64,000 bases of DNA from Hyphomonadaceae bacterium. GTDB lineage: Bacteria; Pseudomonadota; Alphaproteobacteria; Caulobacterales; Hyphomonadaceae. The notes below the pieces were generated by a model that ran no database searches, was not told the DNA's origin, and was given only the letters and a program-made list of their open reading frames with translations. The stretch lies in assembly GCA_024742355.1 (NCBI GenBank), contig JANSYM010000002.1, positions 248,001-312,000 of the forward strand, read 5' to 3'. Position numbers and translations under genes: made by a program. Shown in pieces: positions 51,158 to 64,000 of the stretch (within the stretch, counting starts at the first letter, position 1; every line of letters starts with the position of its first letter).

Positions 51158-51262
51158 AAAAACGTCCTCAAATTTGAAATTGTGCCGCCATTTTCGCGAA
51201 TGCGGAGAGGGTTTTCCCAGCCTGTGATCCATTGGCCTCATCGACAGACGAGGATAATAAAA

Positions 51263-52102
51263 ATGGAACTCATCCCTTTCTTCACCGACTATCTGGGGCC
51301 GCGCATCCTGGGCGGCATCCAGTTCGAATCGACGCGCTATGCGATGGGCACGCTGGTCACATTCTTCGTGCTCTGGGTGGTCCTGCACCGGTTCATCGAG
51401 ACCCGGAAAATCCGCAAACCCACCCCGCGCAACAAGCAGATCCAGATGGAGTTGAAACACTCTTTCAAGACGGTCTGTGTGTTCGTTGCGATGGATATTT
51501 TCATCTTCGAAGCGGCCGATATTGGCCTGTTCCAGAAATATGATGATTTTGCCGAGCATGGCATGCTCTGGTTCTGGATTTCGATCCCGCTGCTGATCAT
51601 CCTGCACGACACCTATTTCTACTGGACGCACCGGGCCATGCACACGGCGACGCTCTACAAGCGCACCCATATGCAGCACCATCGCTCGCACAATCCGACG
51701 CCGTTCACGGCCTATAATTTTGCCGTGGGTGAAGCGATCATCGAGTACATGTACGTGCCGCTCGCGCTCATGCTGATCCCGACCCACAATCTGGCGCTCT
51801 ACATCGTCCTGTCGATCATGATCTTCAAAAACGCGCTGGCGCATTGCGGCTATGAAGTGTTCCCGCGCAGCTGGGCCCGGATGCCGGTGCTGGGCTGGCT
51901 GACCACAGTCACCCATCACGACATGCATCATGAGCGCGGCACCGGAAATTTCGGCTTCTACTTCACCTGGTGGGACCGCTGGATGGGCACCGAACACCCG
52001 AACTATCTCGAACGTCTGGCGGAGCAGGAAGCCCGGGCACAGGAGATGAAAGCCGCCCGCCGCGCGGCAAAGAAACGGCCTCAGATGGTGCCGGCTGAAT
52101 AA
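51263..52102 (+). CDS. Sterol desaturase/fatty acid hydroxylase superfamily membrane protein
   Basis: 279 residues. It is a di-iron integral membrane oxygenase. The three histidine clusters are complete: HDTYFYWTHRAMH, HMQHHRSHNP and THHDMHHE. About four hydrophobic segments surround them. By family it would hydroxylate or desaturate a lipid (fatty acid, hopanoid or sterol-like); the substrate cannot be read from the sequence. The C-terminal tail is charged (EARAQEMKAARRAAKKR). The start at 51263 has GAGGA nine bases upstream, and the 27-codon upstream extension is discounted. A strong terminator follows, so it is separate from the sulfatase gene. Confidence 0.88.
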   Translation: MELIPFFTDYLGPRILGGIQFESTRYAMGTLVTFFVLWVVLHRFIETRKIRKPTPRNKQIQMELKHSFKTVCVFVAMDIFIFEAADIGLFQKYDDFAEHGMLWFWISIPLLIILHDTYFYWTHRAMHTATLYKRTHMQHHRSHNPTPFTAYNFAVGEAIIEYMYVPLALMLIPTHNLALYIVLSIMIFKNALAHCGYEVFPRSWARMPVLGWLTTVTHHDMHHERGTGNFGFYFTWWDRWMGTEHPNYLERLAEQEARAQEMKAARRAAKKRPQMVPAE

Positions 52103-55126: not shown

Positions 55127-56941
55127 TTGAAGGAAGTGTTTGAACGACGCGCCGTAGCGATTTTGTCGACCGACATGGTTGGCTATAGCCGCATGATGGC
55201 GCTCGATCCGGACGCGACCGTCAGGGCGATTAGGCAATGCGAACGCACCATCCGGCGCAGCGCAGAATCTCACGAAGGCCGCATCTTTTCCCGCGCGGGT
55301 GATGGATTTCTGGTTGAATTTTCGAGCGAAACCCAGGCCGTTTGCTCCAGCCTCGAAATCCAGGCCCAGCTTCGTGCCCATAATTCCGATGCCGGGACGG
55401 ATCAGCAAATCTGGCTACGGGCGGGCATCCACCAGGGAGAAGCGATTGTCGACAATGGCAATCTGCATGGCGATGTCGTCAATATCGCCGTACGGCTGCA
55501 GGAATCCGCGCCCGCCGGTGGCACGCTGATTTCAGACATTGTCAAAGAAGCCCTGCCCGAACGCGACTGCGCGTCCATGGCCAGTATCGGCGTCATGCGG
55601 TTCAAGAACATTCCCCGCCCGATCGAGGCGTTCGAGCTGGAAGTTCCCGGTGCCGATGGTGCGGTTCACATTGACGAACAGTTTGACGTGGATGTCGCCC
55701 AGCCCGTGTCGGGATTCGGCGATCGCTCCGCAATTGCGATTTTTCCCTTGAACAATGCCTCTCACAGCCTCGACCATGACCACATTGCCGAAGGGTTCAG
55801 TGACCGCCTGATCGTTGCGCTGTCTCACATGCGGCAGTTCCCGGTCATCGATCGGAATTCCAGCTTCACGCTTGGCGCCGCCGGCGTCCCACACCCGACC
55901 GCCGCTACACGTCTTGGTGCCCGCTATTTTGTTGCCGGCGAATTTTCCGATCACGGCTCGCAGTTTCGGGTCTCGCTGCGGCTGATGGACGGATCGACCG
56001 GGCATATGTTGTGGTCGGATAGTTACGTCCTGGAAGCCGATGAAGTCATCGCCGCACTTGAAGAGGTCTGCGATGTCGTCGTCGGCACGCTCGAAGGCCA
56101 GCTGGAACAGGCCGAAACCGTCCGGGCACGGGCCAGTCGGCTGAGCCGGACAAATATAACGGACCTGGTCTGGCGCGGGCGCTGGCACCTCAACAAGCTG
56201 ACCCAGAAGGATTCCGAACTGGCGCGCGAAATGCTGGAAGCCGCCGTAGACCAGGCGCCCGAACATTCCGAAGCCCTAATCCAGTTGAGTTTCTGGCATT
56301 GGATCGATTGCTGGACACAGCGCAAGCCGCAACAGAATGTCGAAGAATTTCGTGATCTCGCGACGCGAGCACAAGCCTCAAATCCGCATGATAGCCGCGG
56401 GCATTTCCTGATCGGCGCAGCGGAAATCTTGCGCGGGGAACCGGCCAAGGCGCTGGCGCATTTTGAAGAATCCCTGGTTCTCAATCCCAGCCACGCGCAT
56501 GCCCATTCACAGATCGGCAGTTGCCACATGCTGATGGGCCGCCCGGACCTTGCCATTACAAGCCTGGAATCGGCGCTGCGGCTCAATTCCATGGATTACT
56601 ACCTGTTCGTGACCATTGGCGAACTCGCGTGTTCGCATTGTATGGCCGGCAACTATGACCGCGCCATCGCGCTCGCCCGGCAGTCGCTCGACCTGCGCCA
56701 GTCTTACTGGCACGCACGCATGACCGAGATTACGGCTTTGGTTCAGTCGGGTCAGGATCGACGCGCGGCGCAGGCCATGGATGCGCTCCTCATCCGACGA
56801 CCCGATTTTTTCGAACAACCCTATATCGACTGGCTGCCTTTCGAGGACGAAAAGTGGAACGGGTTTTTCAGGGAGAGCCTGGCGAAGGCACGAAATCTCG
56901 GCGGCGATCGGGACAGATCAGACGGCCTGAGCCCGGCATGA
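55127..56941 (+). CDS. Class III nucleotide cyclase-domain protein with TolB-like and TPR regions
   Basis: 604 residues. A class III cyclase domain (about 7-175) has metal ligands D16 (STDMVGYS) and D59 (AGDGFLVEF) and the transition-state pair N119/R123 (VVNIAVRLQE). Then comes a TolB-N/FlgO-like region (about 200-330: AIAIFPLNN, GFSDRLIVALSHM, ARYFVAGEF) and tetratricopeptide-like helices (about 350-590). This architecture is common in alphaproteobacteria. The position that is lysine in many adenylate cyclases is S55, so ATP specificity, or even activity, is uncertain. No membrane segment is seen. The start is TTG with GAGG five bases upstream; a GTG three codons later is an alternative. 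The P450-DyP fusion gene begins 70 bases beyond its stop. Confidence 0.82.
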   Translation: MKEVFERRAVAILSTDMVGYSRMMALDPDATVRAIRQCERTIRRSAESHEGRIFSRAGDGFLVEFSSETQAVCSSLEIQAQLRAHNSDAGTDQQIWLRAGIHQGEAIVDNGNLHGDVVNIAVRLQESAPAGGTLISDIVKEALPERDCASMASIGVMRFKNIPRPIEAFELEVPGADGAVHIDEQFDVDVAQPVSGFGDRSAIAIFPLNNASHSLDHDHIAEGFSDRLIVALSHMRQFPVIDRNSSFTLGAAGVPHPTAATRLGARYFVAGEFSDHGSQFRVSLRLMDGSTGHMLWSDSYVLEADEVIAALEEVCDVVVGTLEGQLEQAETVRARASRLSRTNITDLVWRGRWHLNKLTQKDSELAREMLEAAVDQAPEHSEALIQLSFWHWIDCWTQRKPQQNVEEFRDLATRAQASNPHDSRGHFLIGAAEILRGEPAKALAHFEESLVLNPSHAHAHSQIGSCHMLMGRPDLAITSLESALRLNSMDYYLFVTIGELACSHCMAGNYDRAIALARQSLDLRQSYWHARMTEITALVQSGQDRRAAQAMDALLIRRPDFFEQPYIDWLPFEDEKWNGFFRESLAKARNLGGDRDRSDGLSPA

Positions 56942-57011: not shown

Positions 57012-60000
57012 GTGGCCAAGGCAAAATACTATGACCGCATCAAGGAACTCGAACAGTTAGAGGCCGGTAAGCCCCCGAACAGGCGCGCGATCGACGACAC
57101 AGAATTCGATTTCTCAGTCCTGAAATCAAAATCCTTTTTCGGTCGGTTGATTGCCAGCCTGATGCAGCAGCGCTGGGTCTATGCGCTGCTCAGAATCTGG
57201 TGCCCGGTCATCAAGCTGAATGGCATCCATTTCGTCACACGCTATCAGGATGTCGACTATATCCGCAAAAACGATGCCCGGTTCGAAGCCCCTTATCACC
57301 GAGAGATGGACGTGCTTACCGGCGGCGCCGGGTTTCTGCTCGGCATGGGGCGCGGGCCAGATTATGACCGCCAGTTTCAGTGCATCATGCGCGGCATGGC
57401 CGGACAGCCGCCTGCGTTCCAGCGCGGCGACCTGCAAAAATTCGTCATTCCCAAAGCTGCCGCCACGGCCGACCAGCTGATTTCTGCTGCTGCTGGCGAA
57501 TGCGATGTCATCGAAGATTATCTCAACCGCATCGCGGTCGAGACCTGCTGCCATCACTACGGGCTCGAACCGGAAGACCCGAATGCGTTTGCCCGCTGGT
57601 TGATGTCGCTGAGCGCCCTGCTCTTTGCTGACTATCAGGGTGAAGCCCACATTCGCGACCTCGCCATGGCAGGCGCCAAACGTATACATCCGGTGACCGA
57701 CACGGCCATTGCCCAGGCACGCTATTGCCGGCAATTTCCGGACGAGGCCGCGGTCCGGCATGGCCAGGCTTATTGTGACTGGATATCCGACACGGTGATT
57801 GGTCGCCTCGTCGCGCAGCAGCTCGCGGACCCTGTGAACGGCCCGAGCGATGCAGATATTCGCGGCATGATTATGGGTCTCGCTGTGGGCTTCGTTCCGA
57901 CTGGTGCTGGCGGCGGCGGCGGCATCCTTGAAGTACTGTTGCGCAATCCGGGCGCCATGAAACGCGCAAAAGCCGCAGCGCGGGCGGGCGATGACGATCT
58001 GCTCGAACGCATCCTGCTGGAAGCCATGCGGTTCAAACCGCCCATCCTGCCCGGCCTGCCGCGCTATGTCGTCGGCGATGCGACCCCGGACCATGAGGCG
58101 CCACGCAACAAGCGGGTCGACAAGATCCCAGCCGGCGCCACCATCCTTGCTGCCTCGTTCTCAGCGATGTTTGACGGCCGCAAGTTCGGCCGCAGCATCA
58201 AGCACTTTGATGAACACCGGGAACTGTCCGGCGAAGACCTCTCCTTTGGCGGCCCGGACTTCCTTCATTATTGCTTCGGCGAACAGATCTTCCGGGCGAT
58301 GATCACGCAAGCGTTCAAGCGCCTGCTCACCTGTGACGGGTTGAAACCGGCGCCCGGCAAGGCTGGCAAAATGCAACGCACGGGCCCCTTCCCGGTCCAT
58401 ATGCACATGCAGTTTGCACCGGATGCGGGCCACCGGCACCACTCCATGTTGACGATTTGCCTGCCGCTCGACCGGCCTGATGATGCGGCGCGGATCAATC
58501 GCTGGCTGGACGAGCTCGGCAATCCGGCGGGCACGCAGGCGCGCGACGGCTTGATGGCCGCGCAGAACATCCATTTCACGCACATGACCGCGATTGCCGA
58601 CGAGGCGCGCGATATCCCGGCCAATCTGCTCATCGAGCTGAATGCAGACGGCGATGCAGAAGCGGCAATTGGGGCGTTCGTGGACGGTCTCTGGGACGTC
58701 GATCCATTCCAGAAAATCATGTCCACTGCGCTAGGGTTGAAAAAGGCGACGCCGGACAAAGTCAAATCGAAGCTTCGCAGGCACAATTACGAGCTCAAGA
58801 TCACGCCCTGGCCGGACCCGAAACAGAAGACGATGGGGCTCAACTTTAACGGCCTGCCCGAGCAATCCGTCCCGCAGGTCAGGGAGGAGCGCGCGCTTGC
58901 GCGGGATGCGCGCGGTCATCTCGACACGCTGCTTCAATCCCGCGGTGGCAGCGATCCATCGGCGCGTGAAGCGGTCGAGTATATTCGCCGCCAACTCAAA
59001 CACAGCACGGACAGCAGCGACGCGGCGCGATTGGTGCGACCGGTCCAGAAAGCCCCCTCCGTCTCGCGCCGCCCGACATTGCCACTCGGCGAAACGCTCA
59101 GCCTGTACCTGCAGGATCGCGGATTCCAGGTCACGGTATTGGGCGGCATGGGCCTGTTCTGGCTCGCCTATTTGCTGTTTCTCTATGGCGGCATCCCGAG
59201 CGCGATCAGCTGGCCCTGGATCGGAAAAGCCGCCGTCAATCTCGTCCATATCGGGTTTGCATTTGGGCTGTTCTACATGCTGAACGCCTTGCGCCAGCGC
59301 CTGTTCGGCGGTGGATCAAAAACCGCTCCTGTCGGATGGGCGGTGGCAACGACCCTGCTCTATCTGGTGCTGACGCCGATCGGGATTTGGGGCGCCGGGG
59401 CGCTCGATATCGTCGCTCAGCCAGACTATGTCGCGCGCGTCTTTGCGTTGATAGCGTTTGCCTGGAAACTCGCTTTGTCTGCAATCTTTGGGACGCTCCT
59501 GTGGCTGATTGCTGTTCTCGGATTTGGCTTTCTGTTCCTCCGGCTGCTGAAATCCAGCGAGGACGGCATGCCGCCGGAAGATAGCGACCTCGATCTGGAA
59601 AAGTACCAGGACATCATGCGCCGGGAAAACCAGTCGGATCACGCGCAAAACCACATCGTTTTCGTGACCCCGCTCAAGGACAATCCGCGCTGGTTGCGGC
59701 GGGTGACGATGTTTATCGGCTTCTATTTCATCAAGACCCTGGTCCTGTACCGATTCCGGTTCGGCTTCGTCCTCGATCTCGGGACCATCCACTTTGCCCG
59801 CTGGTTCCTTTTGCCCAAGTCCCACACCATGGTGTTCTACTCGAATTATGATGGCAGCGGGGAATCCTATTTCGAGGATTTCGTCACCAAGGCACGCTGG
59901 GGACAGACCGGTGTCTGGAGCAATGGCAAGGGCTTCCCGGAAACCGAGAACCTGTTGTTCAAGGGCGCCAAGGATGCGACCCGGTTCAAGCGCTGGATCA

Positions 60001-61685
60001 GACACCACCAACAGGTGTCGCGGTTCTGGTTCGCCCGCTTCAAGGACCTGTCGACGCGCGACATTCGGCGCAATGCGATGATCTGCGAAGGCCTGGCAAA
60101 GGCCCGGACCGATAGCGAGTACCGCGCCCTGATCGAGCTGATGAGCACGCGTCCACGCGCCGAGAGCACGCTGGAAACACGTGAGATCCAGAGCCTCATC
60201 CTGCGCGGCATGGGCAATCTGAAGGCGGCGCAGATGATCGCGCTGAACTTCCCGGACACGGGCGCAGATGGCAATGCCGCGCTGGCCAGCTGGCTGGCGG
60301 ACCTGTCCGGCTTGTCGACGACGCCGGTGCATGCCCGCGCAACGTTTGATGCGCGGCTGAACAAGGATGAGACGCACGCCATCAATGTCGCGCTCTCGCC
60401 GGGTGGGTTGCGACGCCTGCGCCTGCAAGAGCTGCATCATGTCCATGAGGGCCTGGAAAGCGACAGTTTCGCCTCCCTGCCCGGCGCGTTTCGAAGCGGG
60501 ATGGTGAGTGATGGCCGACAGCAGATCCTCGGCGACGACAATCACGATGACTGGACCTGGGGCGGCGACGCCGCGCCGGACGCCGTGTTGATGATCTATG
60601 CAAAAGACGCGGGCGCGCTTGAGACACTCGTCTCCGCCGAACGCAATGCGCTGCAGGCCGCGGGCTTCACTGTCGCGAAACAGATTGAGACCCAGACCAT
60701 TGCCGAGAAGCCGATGCGCGAGCCGTTCGGCTTTGTCGACGGCGTGTCGCAGCCAGTGATTCGCGGCGCGCCGGCCAGCCTGGCACCGCATAACCAGATG
60801 CATGTCGTCGAGCCCGGCGAATTCGTGCTCGGCTATCGCGACAATACCGAATACTTCCCGACCTCGCCGATGGTGAACGCCCTGGCGCCTGGCGCGGCCC
60901 ATCTGCCCTCACTGCCCGCCCATGCGCTGGACGATTACCCGGCTTTTGGCAGCGACCCGCAGACGGCGCCAAAAGACCTCGGCAAGAACGGGTCTTTCCT
61001 GGTCATTCGCCAATTGGAACAGGACAAGGCCGGGTTTGCGGCACATCTGAAAACCCAGGCCGACAAAGCGCGCGCCGAGTACGGCCTCAGCTATATTGAT
61101 GAGGACTGGCTCGCCGCGAAAGTCATGGGGCGGTGGAAGAATGGCTCTTCCCTCGTGCGCCATCCCGACAAGGCGGATCGGTCGCCGTCGCCCGAGCTCA
61201 GCGTCGATGATAATTCGTTTCAATTCGGGGCCGAAGACCCGCAAGGCTTGAAATGTCCCTTCGGCGCCCATATCCGCCGCGCCAATCCGCGCGACAGTCA
61301 GGACCCGGCGGCGGCCGAGCGCCAGATCGCCTTGTCCAACCGCCATCGCCTGCTGCGCCGCGGGCGGGCTTATCGCGAGGGGGCGAATGAGAATAAAGGT
61401 CTGCTCTTCATGTGCCTGAACGCCAATCTCGAGCGCCAGTTCGAATTCGTCCAGCAAACCTGGCTCAATAACCCGCGCTTCCACGGCCTGCAGGACGAGT
61501 ATGACTCCATCGCCGGACACGCGTCGGGCGCCGAGAACAGGCTTTCCATTCCAACGGCGGCGGGGCCCATTCAGGTCAAAGGCCTGCAATCCTTCGTGAC
61601 CATGAAAGGCGGCGGCTATTTCTTCATGCCGAGCCGCTCTGCGCTGCGCTTCCTGAGCACCTATGTCGGCGCGCAAGCGACTTAG
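57012..61685 (+). CDS. Cytochrome P450-like / membrane / DyP-type peroxidase fusion protein
   Basis: 1557 residues. Residues about 45-440 look like a cytochrome P450: ExxR as E337-A-M-R340, and a cysteine-ligand region FGGPDFLHYCFG with C421. The I-helix area is a glycine run (TGAGGGGG, about 297-304) instead of the usual AGxxT oxygen-activation motif. Residues about 460-600 and 880-1000 hold two copies of a small domain. Four to five membrane helices lie at about 707-846. Residues about 1100-1550 are a DyP-type peroxidase with G1240-FVDG (GxxDG), proximal heme ligand H1420 in CPFGAHIRRANPRD and RRGRAY (about 1449-1454). Two heme sites are therefore expected. No N-terminal signal peptide is seen. 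The start is GTG with AGGAGGG. The stop overlaps the convergent DUF1622 stop. The domain calls are from motifs; the function as a whole is unknown. Confidence 0.8.
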   Translation: MAKAKYYDRIKELEQLEAGKPPNRRAIDDTEFDFSVLKSKSFFGRLIASLMQQRWVYALLRIWCPVIKLNGIHFVTRYQDVDYIRKNDARFEAPYHREMDVLTGGAGFLLGMGRGPDYDRQFQCIMRGMAGQPPAFQRGDLQKFVIPKAAATADQLISAAAGECDVIEDYLNRIAVETCCHHYGLEPEDPNAFARWLMSLSALLFADYQGEAHIRDLAMAGAKRIHPVTDTAIAQARYCRQFPDEAAVRHGQAYCDWISDTVIGRLVAQQLADPVNGPSDADIRGMIMGLAVGFVPTGAGGGGGILEVLLRNPGAMKRAKAAARAGDDDLLERILLEAMRFKPPILPGLPRYVVGDATPDHEAPRNKRVDKIPAGATILAASFSAMFDGRKFGRSIKHFDEHRELSGEDLSFGGPDFLHYCFGEQIFRAMITQAFKRLLTCDGLKPAPGKAGKMQRTGPFPVHMHMQFAPDAGHRHHSMLTICLPLDRPDDAARINRWLDELGNPAGTQARDGLMAAQNIHFTHMTAIADEARDIPANLLIELNADGDAEAAIGAFVDGLWDVDPFQKIMSTALGLKKATPDKVKSKLRRHNYELKITPWPDPKQKTMGLNFNGLPEQSVPQVREERALARDARGHLDTLLQSRGGSDPSAREAVEYIRRQLKHSTDSSDAARLVRPVQKAPSVSRRPTLPLGETLSLYLQDRGFQVTVLGGMGLFWLAYLLFLYGGIPSAISWPWIGKAAVNLVHIGFAFGLFYMLNALRQRLFGGGSKTAPVGWAVATTLLYLVLTPIGIWGAGALDIVAQPDYVARVFALIAFAWKLALSAIFGTLLWLIAVLGFGFLFLRLLKSSEDGMPPEDSDLDLEKYQDIMRRENQSDHAQNHIVFVTPLKDNPRWLRRVTMFIGFYFIKTLVLYRFRFGFVLDLGTIHFARWFLLPKSHTMVFYSNYDGSGESYFEDFVTKARWGQTGVWSNGKGFPETENLLFKGAKDATRFKRWIRHHQQVSRFWFARFKDLSTRDIRRNAMICEGLAKARTDSEYRALIELMSTRPRAESTLETREIQSLILRGMGNLKAAQMIALNFPDTGADGNAALASWLADLSGLSTTPVHARATFDARLNKDETHAINVALSPGGLRRLRLQELHHVHEGLESDSFASLPGAFRSGMVSDGRQQILGDDNHDDWTWGGDAAPDAVLMIYAKDAGALETLVSAERNALQAAGFTVAKQIETQTIAEKPMREPFGFVDGVSQPVIRGAPASLAPHNQMHVVEPGEFVLGYRDNTEYFPTSPMVNALAPGAAHLPSLPAHALDDYPAFGSDPQTAPKDLGKNGSFLVIRQLEQDKAGFAAHLKTQADKARAEYGLSYIDEDWLAAKVMGRWKNGSSLVRHPDKADRSPSPELSVDDNSFQFGAEDPQGLKCPFGAHIRRANPRDSQDPAAAERQIALSNRHRLLRRGRAYREGANENKGLLFMCLNANLERQFEFVQQTWLNNPRFHGLQDEYDSIAGHASGAENRLSIPTAAGPIQVKGLQSFVTMKGGGYFFMPSRSALRFLSTYVGAQAT

Positions 61686-62116
61686 GTCTTGTTCGCGTGC
61701 GGCGCCTCGATTTCGTGGATTTCCCGGCCCAGGAAGAAGGAAATCGCGGTCCGGATCAGCACCAGAAGGCCGACAAAAATCAGGTCTGTGAGCTCTCGTG
61801 TGATCACCGTGTGGACGATGTCCGACGCGATCATGAATTCGAGACCCGTCAGAATATACGTCCCGAGAATCGTGCGCGCGGCGTTGAGGTTGCCGAGGTT
61901 CTTGGTCAGGCCAACGCCATGTCGCAAGCCAGCCAGGAGGCGAAACAGCGACACGAAGAAGCCGAACAAGATCAGCGCAACGCCGATCAGGTCGATACAG
62001 ATCGCCAGGCCCTCCAGCGCGTGTGCGACAGGCGCATCCAGTCCGAACGGCAAATGCTCAAGTGATGTCCCGCCGGTCATGCCGTCCATGGGATGAGTTG
62101 AATCAGACGTGCTCAT
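61682..62116 (-). CDS. DUF1622 family membrane protein
   Basis: 144 residues. Three to four membrane helices are seen: ALEGLAICIDLIGVALILFGFFVSLF, then ARTILGTYILTGLEFMIASDIVHTVI, then DLIFVGLLVLIRTAISFFLGRE. The phrases LGTYILTGLEFMIASDI and LIRTAISFFLGREI are the DUF1622 hallmark. Function is unknown. The ATG overlaps the stop of the Rieske-TPP gene by one base (TGATG; a GTG one codon earlier would give a GTGA overlap), so the two are translated together. Its TAA and the TAG of the convergent P450-DyP gene share the four bases TTAG, leaving no room for a terminator between them. Confidence 0.85.
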   Translation of the reverse strand: MSTSDSTHPMDGMTGGTSLEHLPFGLDAPVAHALEGLAICIDLIGVALILFGFFVSLFRLLAGLRHGVGLTKNLGNLNAARTILGTYILTGLEFMIASDIVHTVITRELTDLIFVGLLVLIRTAISFFLGREIHEIEAPHANKT

Positions 62117-64000
62117 CACAACAGCTCCGCATCGGTGATGACTTCAATCAAAGACGGGCCATCATGCGCAATCGCCTTGGCGAGCGCCGCGTCGAGCTCC
62201 TCGCGTGTCTTGACCAGTTCGCCCATACCGCCGCAGGAGCGGGCAAAGCCGGCAAAGCTCGGATTGACCAGGCTGGTCTGCCAGACTTCAAACTCGGCGG
62301 CCTTCTGCTCCTTGGAGATTTTGCCCAGTTCGGAATTGTTCATCAGGACATGCGTGATGTTCATGCCGTATTTGACCGCAGTGGTGAATTCCATCGCGTA
62401 CTGCCCGAAGCCGCCATCGCCAGAGACCGAGACAACCTTGCGGCCCTTGTAAGGCCCCTCTTCCTGTGTCGCCGCCCAGGCGCCCATGGCGGCCGGGAAC
62501 GAGAAGCCGATGGAGCCGAGATAGCCTGACATCAGGACGCGCTGCTGGCCCGTCGGTTCAAAATAGCGCCCAAAGGAATAGGTGTTGTTGCCAACATCTA
62601 CGGGCAAGATCGCATCCTCTGGCGCATGCCGTGTCAGCGCTTCGAACAAGGCCGCTGCGGAGACGCCTTTGCCACGGTCTTCACCGACGCGGCTTTCTTT
62701 CTCGGCCCGCCAATGTGTCCAGCGCTCAGCAACTTCGCCGCGCATGTCGGTCGAAGCGGCGCCGCCGCGGGCCATCTCTGCCTTGAGCAGGTCTGCGGTA
62801 ACGGCAACATCGCCCATGACCGGGACCGTCACCGGGTGACGCTTGGCAAGGCGCATCGGGTCAGTATCGACCTGAATGGTCGGGGCGCCTTCATAGATGC
62901 CGGTATGGTCTGAGAAACTCGAGCCGAAGACCAGCAGCAGGTCCGCTTCATTCATGAACCAGCTGGCAATCGGGGTTCCGGACCGGCCCATGACGCCGGC
63001 GGCGAGTGGATGATCGTCGCCAATCTGCCCTTTGGCCTTGAACGTGGTGGCAACCGGCGCACCGAGTTGTTCGGCAAGCGCAATCACGCTCTCCATGCCA
63101 TTGAGCGCGCCATAGCCGACGATGATCATCGGGCGCTTGGCGCCTTTCAGCAGATCGGCCGCCTCTTTCAGCGCTGATGGCGGCGGACCAACGCAGAGAT
63201 TGGCCATTCGGCCCTCGGGCCCATAAGCCTCAGCCCCTTCCGGCGCCGGCTTCGGCTGGACATTGTCCGGGAACACCAGGTGCCCGACGCCGCGTTGCAG
63301 GATCGAGGTTTTGATCGCCTGCGTCATCAGCAGGGCATGATCAGAGGTCAGGTGCACGGTCTCGGAAAACTCGGCGACAGCTTCAAACGCGGCTTCCAGA
63401 TCAATGTCCTGGAAGGCGTGCACGCCGACGACCTGGTCCTGGACCTGGCCCGTCAGAGCCAGTGCCGGGGCACCGTCGACCTTGGCATCCCAGAGCCCGG
63501 TCAGCAGATTGGTCGCGCCTGGGCCAGCAATCGTCAGAGCCGCTGCAGGGTGTCCGGTCAGCTTGCCGTATCCGGAACAGGCGAACGCGGCGGCGCCTTC
63601 ATGGCGAATGCCGTAATAGCGCAGATTGCCTTCGGCTTCCTGCACGCGCAGTGCATCCGCCAGACCAAGATTAGAGTGGCCAACCATACCGAACACGCTG
63701 GTAACGCCCCAATTGGTCATCGTCTCGGCCATCACGTCGGCAATCGTCCGGGCGCGTGGCGGCAATGCCGGAACGCCGACATAGATGCCATCATCACGGA
63801 TATCGACATCGAACATGTCCTGGCCGGTATCTTCGTGCCCGCCAGGCGGCTTGCCGGTCAGCGGGTCAAAGTCCCAGCCATGCCACGGGCAGCGCAACCA
63901 GCACTCATCGTCAACGCCTTTCTCGATCGAGCCTTCACCAAGCGGACCGCCCTGGTGTGGACACTTATTGTCCATCGCCGCGTACTGGCCCTTGTGATGC
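62116..64000 (-). CDS. Rieske [2Fe-2S] domain fused to thiamine diphosphate-dependent enzyme, 5' end beyond window
   Basis: At least 628 codons are in the window. The frame stays open to position 64000, so the ATG at 63975 is internal. The Rieske cluster ligands are complete: CPH in DNKCPHQGG and CPWH in RCPWHGWDF. After a short linker comes a full acetolactate synthase/pyruvate oxidase-like protein: RHEGAAAFACSGYGKLTG with the TPP-activating glutamate, a central domain, and the TPP motif SGDGGFGQYAMEF...MNNSELGK. The reaction is unknown; family members decarboxylate 2-oxo acids. A Rieske cluster on such an enzyme suggests electron removal from the TPP intermediate or redox sensing (inference). 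It is coupled to the DUF1622 gene downstream. Confidence 0.85.
   Translation of the reverse strand, partial: HHKGQYAAMDNKCPHQGGPLGEGSIEKGVDDECWLRCPWHGWDFDPLTGKPPGGHEDTGQDMFDVDIRDDGIYVGVPALPPRARTIADVMAETMTNWGVTSVFGMVGHSNLGLADALRVQEAEGNLRYYGIRHEGAAAFACSGYGKLTGHPAAALTIAGPGATNLLTGLWDAKVDGAPALALTGQVQDQVVGVHAFQDIDLEAAFEAVAEFSETVHLTSDHALLMTQAIKTSILQRGVGHLVFPDNVQPKPAPEGAEAYGPEGRMANLCVGPPPSALKEAADLLKGAKRPMIIVGYGALNGMESVIALAEQLGAPVATTFKAKGQIGDDHPLAAGVMGRSGTPIASWFMNEADLLLVFGSSFSDHTGIYEGAPTIQVDTDPMRLAKRHPVTVPVMGDVAVTADLLKAEMARGGAASTDMRGEVAERWTHWRAEKESRVGEDRGKGVSAAALFEALTRHAPEDAILPVDVGNNTYSFGRYFEPTGQQRVLMSGYLGSIGFSFPAAMGAWAATQEEGPYKGRKVVSVSGDGGFGQYAMEFTTAVKYGMNITHVLMNNSELGKISKEQKAAEFEVWQTSLVNPSFAGFARSCGGMGELVKTREELDAALAKAIAHDGPSLIEVITDAELL

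Follow-up and report, generated by a model that had tools for sequence, protein, structure and literature searches.

A bacterial membrane protein that joins a cytochrome P450 to a DyP peroxidase

What would a bacterium do with a cytochrome P450 and a DyP peroxidase in one polypeptide, and is such a polypeptide real? The question is raised by a 64,000-nucleotide stretch of DNA from a Hyphomonadaceae bacterium (positions 248001-312000 of source contig JANSYM010000002.1; hereafter the window), in which a gene at 57012..61685 on the plus strand, with a GTG start at 57012 and a stop at 61685, encodes 1557 amino acids (aa) in the layout P450-M1-TM-M2-DyP, where M1 and M2 are two copies of one domain and TM is a hydrophobic region between them. 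An earlier note on this DNA, made without database searches, had read the product as a membrane-held protein with both heme domains; profile searches (P450, 1.2e-49; DyP, 2.8e-39 against PDB 8re3) and hydrophobic segments bear this out, and one bacterial membrane protein thus joins a cytochrome P450 to a DyP peroxidase. The interpretation in that note, as a whole, was partly supported. The analysis also brought out features that it had not described, namely the duplicated M domain, split and reversed forms of the module, an exchange of the P450 for a catalase-type protein, and neighbouring cyclase/TPR and Crp-type regulators.

The earlier note had named a frameshift or assembly error joining two genes as what would undo its interpretation. 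Translation of the open reading frame (ORF) revealed no in-frame stop across 57012-61685 (1557 residues). The full fusion is open in 5 of 29 genomes of the genus, its own genome counted, and one of these is a one-contig assembly; a TGA flagged in the one-contig genus assembly proved to be the gene's end, 8 residues short. In addition, the fusion is a single annotated coding sequence (CDS) on closed plasmids, for example, SARO_RS19865 on plasmid pNL2 of Novosphingobium aromaticivorans DSM 12444, where the annotation names DyP, and K3755_RS15475 on a Sulfitobacter pontiacus plasmid and PYR65_RS25005 on a Pararhizobium plasmid, where it names P450. The open join in the genus genomes and the closed-plasmid CDSs rule out a frameshift or assembly error, and they show, together with further genomes described below, that the fusion is conserved elsewhere. 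Among named relatives, genomes of Henriciella and Hyphomonas come closest to the window (77% identity). In each domain of the fusion protein dN is far under dS (three relatives compared; dS near saturation). The fusion is rare: a sample of the class gave matches of any kind in 23 of 385 genomes, and the full-length form occurred only in the window's own genome.

The P450 domain covers residues 56-468 (57177..58415, plus strand) and was recognised by our own family profile at 3e-139. A single-sequence phmmer search matched residues 70-439 to the PDB P450 5vws at 9.8e-6, and a profile of 55 relatives matched 707 distinct PDB sequences, with 5vws at the top (1.2e-49), so the earlier note's other concern, that no significant P450 match might exist here, falls away. 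The Pfam search proposed in that note succeeded for DyP and not for P450: Pfam p450 gave no match for the window protein alone at E 1, and PF20628, the DyP C-terminal domain, was its only Pfam match (23.8 bits against a cut-off of 20). Pfam p450 matched the P450 of a split relative at 4e-16, and NCBIfam gave weak P450 subfamily matches for the window protein (2.5e-6 and 3.6e-4). The motifs that the earlier note had pointed out, E337-A-M-R340 and the Cys421 region here and GFVDG and His1420 in the DyP domain, were all located as described. By alignment, the ExxR motif lies at 58020..58031 and the heme thiolate ligand Cys421 at 58272..58274 (both plus strand). R340 is invariant and E337 kept in at least 90% of the 55-sequence P450 alignment; Cys421 is invariant in that alignment and in 114/114 non-redundant P450 rows.

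The I-helix carries GFVPT at residues 293-297 (57888..57902, plus strand), and the alignment places Pro296 at the acid position with Thr297 retained; the window protein therefore lacks the acid-alcohol pair of O2-dependent P450s (it has P296-T297). The earlier note had seen a glycine run in place of AGxxT. That the pair is altered stands, with Pro for the acid and Thr kept, and the glycine-rich run at 298-304 lies after the site; it is present in the Hyphomonadaceae rows (L001-L004 and L080-L083; L numbers are our handles for loci) and partial in L005/L006. Of 33 non-redundant fused P450s, 32 have Pro at the acid position, the remaining one has Ala and none has Asp or Glu (0/33), whereas both Thr and the heme Cys are retained in 33/33. 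Asp or Glu is likewise found in 0/3 reversed fusions. Control P450s have Asp or Glu at this position in 29/30 cases (best-scoring P450 loci, a set biased to canonical members). The missing pair counts against a standard monooxygenase site and not against a P450 fold, and loss of the acid with Thr and Cys retained fits a peroxide-fed P450.

Some P450s linked to the module depart further from the usual site. Most of those in Novosphingobium lack both the acid and Thr. In L011 and the Novosphingobium loci L029-L031, L035-L040, L043, L046 and L062 the I-helix is degenerate (e.g., ELTGALVLIVGK) and the heme Cys intact; most of these P450s stand behind a ~1020-aa cyclase-domain protein, with AAA and weak TPR matches in L043, the only one put to Pfam. 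A split-form P450 with an N-terminal glutathione S-transferase (GST)-like domain was found at L072:7143-9158 (Pfam-confirmed) and, by our own profile, at L019:5899-7992, L020:5338-7302, L025:7113-9095 and L055:5377-7380, and separate GST-like genes adjoin the module in other loci. Glutathione chemistry may be part of the P450/M/DyP system.

The DyP domain spans residues 1120-1548 (60369..61655, plus strand) and was identified by TIGR01413 (2.1e-25; 89.7 bits, below the curated cut-off of 100.5), our own profile and PDB 8re3 (2.8e-39). We aligned it with other members to give 84 DyP rows, which contain near-copies (L002-L004 vs L081-L083). The GxxDG motif, GFVDG at residues 1240-1244 (60729..60743, plus strand), provides the distal Asp1243, with Asp in 83/84 rows and one gap; the distal Arg1333 (61008..61010, plus strand) is Arg in 84/84 rows, and the proximal heme ligand His1420 (61269..61271, plus strand), within CPFGAHIRRANPRD, is His in 84/84. 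Judged from sequence, the DyP catalytic residues are intact. The domain thus has the catalytic Asp, Arg and His in common with DyP-type peroxidases (8re3, Alr1585, fungal DyP), along with a sequence match; however, its top-scoring counterparts in PDB, 442-493 aa long, consist of DyP alone, whereas here DyP is fused to or beside M, often with a P450 or a catalase-type protein.

Between the two putative heme domains lie M1 (residues 479-634; 58446..58913) and M2 (residues 879-1042; 59646..60137), both on the plus strand and recognised by our own profiles as copies of a ~160-aa domain. They are homologous (hhalign probability 99.2, E 9.6e-20). The hallmark of M2 is TIHFARW ... SNYDGSWESYLEDF, read in the window protein as IHFARW ... 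SNYDG, and M2 has the lowest dN in the protein, about 0.02 between genus members. The M1 and M2 profiles gave no match of substance against Pfam and PDB. Weak matches of the M region were to ERD4 (3e-4, across the helical stretch) and to Pectate_lyase22 (0.003, in 3/25 members). The CSC1-like ERD4 match is gone with an M2-only profile and was taken as composition. A descent of M from a DyP half was unsupported at the sequence level, with hhalign probabilities of about 1 or less against either half. M is, by these profile comparisons, an unnamed domain family that is duplicated in the fusion protein. The hydrophobic, probably membrane-spanning region between the copies covers residues 707-843 (59130..59540, plus strand). 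The earlier note had counted 4-5 helices, a number that a simple hydropathy scan does not bear out: it gives three segments in the window protein (707-725, 774-792 and 825-843), and the same scan across 25 fused rows, including the window, gives two in 19, three in 4 and four in 2.

The same parts recur in other genomes. The first set, 78 loci, was obtained by scanning species genomes and draws on the 80 best of 156 relatives; near-copies L004 and L081-L083, plus truncated, stray or genus rows, were left out before some tallies. Of the 84 DyP rows, 29 are fused to M and P450, and a P450 lies in the locus of a further 24 M-DyP fusions and 9 separate DyPs (in L052 and L064, among the 9, it is of another type); no P450 lies in the locus of 7 M-DyP fusions and 15 separate DyPs, some of them cut by contig ends. 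In relatives from Ktedonobacter, Frankiaceae, Geodermatophilaceae, Acidobacteria and Armatimonadota the parts are three adjacent genes. A quick tree built from 77 rows requires the fused state to change 5 times, at least 2 of them imposed by well-supported branches. From the class sample we read 12 places in 11 of the 23 matching genomes, picked for DyP- or M-type matches; 9 of these 12 loci carry a P450, and in three (L123, L124 and L127) the order is reversed, with DyP followed by P450 in one frame. The P450 match of L127 is weak and partial (4e-6), that of L124 is 2e-29 by our own profile with no NCBIfam P450 match, and L123 has both.

A second survey searched 398 genomes of the phylum with the M2 profile; 28 matched and 26 loci were read (24 regions minus that of G738, plus L120, L122 and L126; the survey omits the window's own genome, G738, with E 1e-3 and no M in the locus, and a second place in G513). 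In 26/26 a DyP is found no more than 1.1 kb from M. A P450 alone is found in 15 of these loci (6 fused, two with the P450 about 1 kb off), a catalase-related gene alone in 7, both in 0 and neither in 4, one of which is at a contig edge; the mutual exclusion has a Fisher p of 5e-4, uncorrected for relatedness. In 73 loci of the first set the corresponding numbers are 53, 6, 1 and 13, and the sole locus with both is L064. A motif had suggested that the P450 of L064 is CYP74-like, which was unsupported; the 60 best of its 199 PDB matches are other P450s. Among 13 plasmid regions, read by choice from 84 records with a match, this P450 occurs in 4, a catalase-type gene in 5, both in 1 (L162) and neither in 3. 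A catalase-related domain is even fused to DyP in L077, L079 and L206. The Pfam Catalase cut-off was passed by L068 and L078, and Pfam Catalase gave no match for the catalase-type genes of L052, L064, the L077 fusion, L206 and L161; outside L068 and L078, "catalase-related" rests on our own profile and plasmid annotation; the L068 gene had no match in PDB. Taken together, these counts show that M and DyP are linked and that P450 and catalase-type genes replace one another beside them, which we read as one slot open to a P450 and to a catalase-related heme protein alike.

Regulators are also linked to the module. Upstream of the fusion in the window, and ending 70 nt before it, is a gene at 55127..56941 (plus strand) for a regulator with a class III nucleotidyl cyclase domain (Pfam Guanylate_cyc, 1.1e-6), a middle region without a Pfam match, here labelled "TolB-like", and TPR repeats. 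A TPR regulator lies directly upstream in 22/25 fused rows, or 24/25 with the inclusion of two cases of overlap with an over-long start prediction; L018 is the fused row without one. In the survey it is upstream in 6/6 fused loci, 4 of them with a cyclase domain. A profile scan of 23 fused rows found the cyclase and the TolB-like part in 12, the TolB-like part only in 7 (some cut by contig ends) and neither in 4. The neighbour of the pNL2 fusion is annotated as a SARP-family regulator. Cyclase genes within 600 nt were found in 15/64 split rows, including nine Novosphingobium loci, L011, L049, L066 and the reversed L124 and L127, and also beside the modules of L211, L213 and L223 from the second survey; the cyclase genes beside split or reversed modules are of other builds than the fused-gene regulator. 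A Crp-type gene lies within 200 nt of nine modules in the first set (L005, L011, L016, L018, L021, L028, L032, L061 and L066) and of L201, L202, L204 and L205 in the survey, 0.8 kb away in L211, and beside the Pararhizobium plasmid fusion.

The genes near some catalase-type modules bear on the possible substrate. In L052, a cyanobacterial locus, an opposite-strand gene 2 kb from M encodes a fatty-acid alpha-dioxygenase, with a near full-length match (2.7e-124) to 4kvj, a plant enzyme, and L071 holds a close relative of it; a further animal-type haem peroxidase gene is present in L064, L077, L079 and L206. Three plasmids of alike gene order combine catalase-M-DyP with neighbouring genes for oleate hydratase and 3-hydroxyacyl-CoA dehydrogenase, and perhaps represent one cassette. 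For the transformation of fatty-acid hydroperoxides two unrelated solutions are known, one based on P450s and the other on catalase-related proteins. A case of a catalase-related protein that acts in this way is cited in a passage of PMC13049297. Lipid hydroperoxides would therefore be the leading candidate substrate; the neighbours in question go with the catalase-type form, and their bearing on the fused form is inferred. Five loci with animal-type haem peroxidase genes (L052:6770-7207, L064, L071, L077 and L079) also encode a ~150-aa protein, which had no Pfam match in the two tested; the search for it covered the first-set loci.

Is a P450 with a peroxide-handling partner in one chain without precedent? 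It is a known kind, and the partner and scaffold differ here. The P450 of fungal dioxygenase-P450 fusions is not known to need a reductase. Those fusions (linoleate diol synthase/Ppo/AOS) and oomycete CYP5619 likewise combine a heme peroxidase-type domain with a P450 in one chain; the P450 part of the fungal proteins transforms a fatty-acid hydroperoxide, according to a passage of PMC13049297, and the partner is a cyclooxygenase-superfamily peroxidase/dioxygenase, N-terminal to the P450 in the fungal fusions (PMC4420034) and also described for CYP5619 (PMC5919972). In the window protein the partner is a DyP, in contrast to Ppo/LDS and CYP5619, and it is C-terminal, in contrast to Ppo/LDS; a Pfam search found no match to PF03098, the animal-type haem peroxidase family. 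Bacteria also have the CYP152 P450 peroxygenases (P450 BSbeta, SPalpha and OleT), which act on fatty acids with H2O2 and are not known to be fused to another heme domain. These lack the acid-alcohol pair as well; however, passages of PMC5818669 and PMC10988616 give Arg-Pro at that site, whereas the window P450 has Pro-Thr and no Arg, so it is not a CYP152. A cyanobacterial 10S-dioxygenase and a catalase-related hydroperoxide lyase handle fatty-acid hydroperoxide (Brash 2014, as cited in PMC13049297), and some M-DyP loci similarly pair an alpha-dioxygenase or animal-type haem peroxidase with a catalase-type gene; the passage that cites the cyanobacterial system mentions no DyP or M partner, whereas M-DyP loci have both. 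For a P450-DyP fusion or system itself, no description was found among the titles and abstract openings listed from the open-licence PubMed Central literature (subscription papers are mostly outside that scope), in agreement with the earlier note, which knew of no system of this form.

We put the chance that the protein is a membrane two-heme, peroxide-driven oxidase at roughly one half; perhaps it acts on fatty-acid hydroperoxides. Its core would be a DyP bound to the duplicated M1/M2 scaffold and chained to a P450 without the O2-activating acid, the whole anchored in the membrane. The P450 would skip the normal NAD(P)H/O2 cycle and use or rearrange a peroxide, and DyP would use or remove peroxide beside it. 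The substrates, accessed from the membrane, would likely be fatty acids or their hydroperoxides. The cyclase/TPR protein encoded upstream would probably govern synthesis or activity, as would a Crp-type regulator in several relatives. Several observations weigh against this proposal. Loss of the acid alone is no proof of peroxide use, and the linked separate P450s retain Asp or Glu in 16/43, so the P450 may descend from an ordinary monooxygenase. The fatty-acid neighbours occur with the catalase-type form, not the fused form, and those on plasmids resemble one cassette; the gene of the fatty-acid-hydroxylase family that lies 5 kb upstream of the window fusion says little. Neither a P450 nor a catalase-type gene is present in 13/73 first-set loci, 4/26 survey loci and 3/13 plasmid regions, and no Crp gene is adjacent to the fusion in the window. 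Finally, a Methylorubrum populi plasmid (L162:240-6213) has, in a row, genes for a ferredoxin (75 aa), an FAD oxidoreductase, a P450, a catalase-family protein, M and DyP, and so pairs a catalase-type gene and a canonical P450 (AGHETT) with a ferredoxin and a reductase.

The last case bears on the alternative of an ordinary O2-dependent P450 that is fed by diffusible redox partners (ferredoxin and reductase) encoded elsewhere in the genome, with DyP only scavenging the H2O2 leaked by uncoupling. Pfam p450 also matches 8 further places (7 frames) in the window's own genome, which makes the existence of redox partners probable; all fused rows retain Thr297, the acid persists in 16/43 linked separate P450s, and the Methylorubrum plasmid groups all the genes in question. 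This explanation nevertheless seems unlikely, given that the acid is gone from every one of the 33 fused rows and that the sole P450 with a ferredoxin neighbour is the canonical one. As the earlier note had observed for ferredoxin and reductase genes, the genes on either side of the fusion in the window are neither, and a simple pattern scan found no short acidic 2Fe-2S ferredoxin among the 80-219 aa ORFs of the loci scanned (one of the 75-aa type would escape it); the plasmid relative does carry both genes. The acid is present beside a reductase gene and gone from the fused form, which has no such neighbour, a correspondence that has one case on the reductase side.

The hemes could alternatively sense or make an oxidised-lipid or peroxide signal that is read by the cyclase/TPR protein and the Crp-type regulator. 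The TPR regulator upstream of most fused genes and the cyclase and Crp-type genes near modules agree with such a device, but 49/64 split rows have no cyclase beside them, a neighbouring regulator may merely control expression, and the kept DyP catalytic residues fit an enzyme; we regard a signalling role of this kind as a distinctly minor prospect. Still more improbable is a P450 domain that has no catalysis of its own and serves as a heme or structural partner in the manner of P450-derived glycosyltransferase activators, to which one of the weak NCBIfam matches points (TIGR04515, 3.6e-4) along with the strongly degenerate I-helix in Novosphingobium; against it stand the heme Cys in every P450 row, the conserved ExxR residues and the low dN of the P450 domain (0.13-0.15 vs dS 1.7-2.1). 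Extending the peroxide-driven oxidase, we tentatively suggest a bacterial equivalent of the oxylipin synthases that fungi build from a dioxygenase and a P450, in which a DyP and M core has a P450 or catalase-related protein plugged in, often by fusion, and would process lipid hydroperoxides at the membrane under cyclase and Crp-type control; we think it possible, with the odds somewhat against it. What DyP peroxidases do in the cell has long been an open question. If the suggestion is true, DyP gains a partner-dependent biosynthetic or signalling role and is no lone peroxidase. Its conserved, repeatedly fused partner, either a catalase-related protein or a P450 whose site is of the peroxide type, offers a direct handle on the question. 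The system would also add a new natural reductase-free P450 design, with Pro-Thr replacing the acid-alcohol pair, and the unnamed domain family M.

Other genes surround the fusion in the window. At 62116-63999 on the minus strand, 0.4 kb downstream of the fusion and on the opposite strand to it, a gene whose N-terminus runs off the window encodes a Rieske [2Fe-2S] domain (Pfam, 1.3e-8) fused to a thiamine-diphosphate enzyme (TPP_enzyme N/M/C); a relative of it lies several kb from the P450-DyP fusion in L002 and L003. Between them, at 61688-62119 on the minus strand, is a gene for a DUF1622 protein (7e-18), convergent with the fusion gene. It was discarded as a conserved partner, being 4 kb distant in L002/L003; a DUF1622 gene is also found near a Rhodococcus M-DyP-catalase cluster, L168. 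The fatty acid hydroxylase/sterol desaturase family gene upstream, at 51182-52102 on the plus strand (2.7e-27), also occurs near the fusion in L002-L004.

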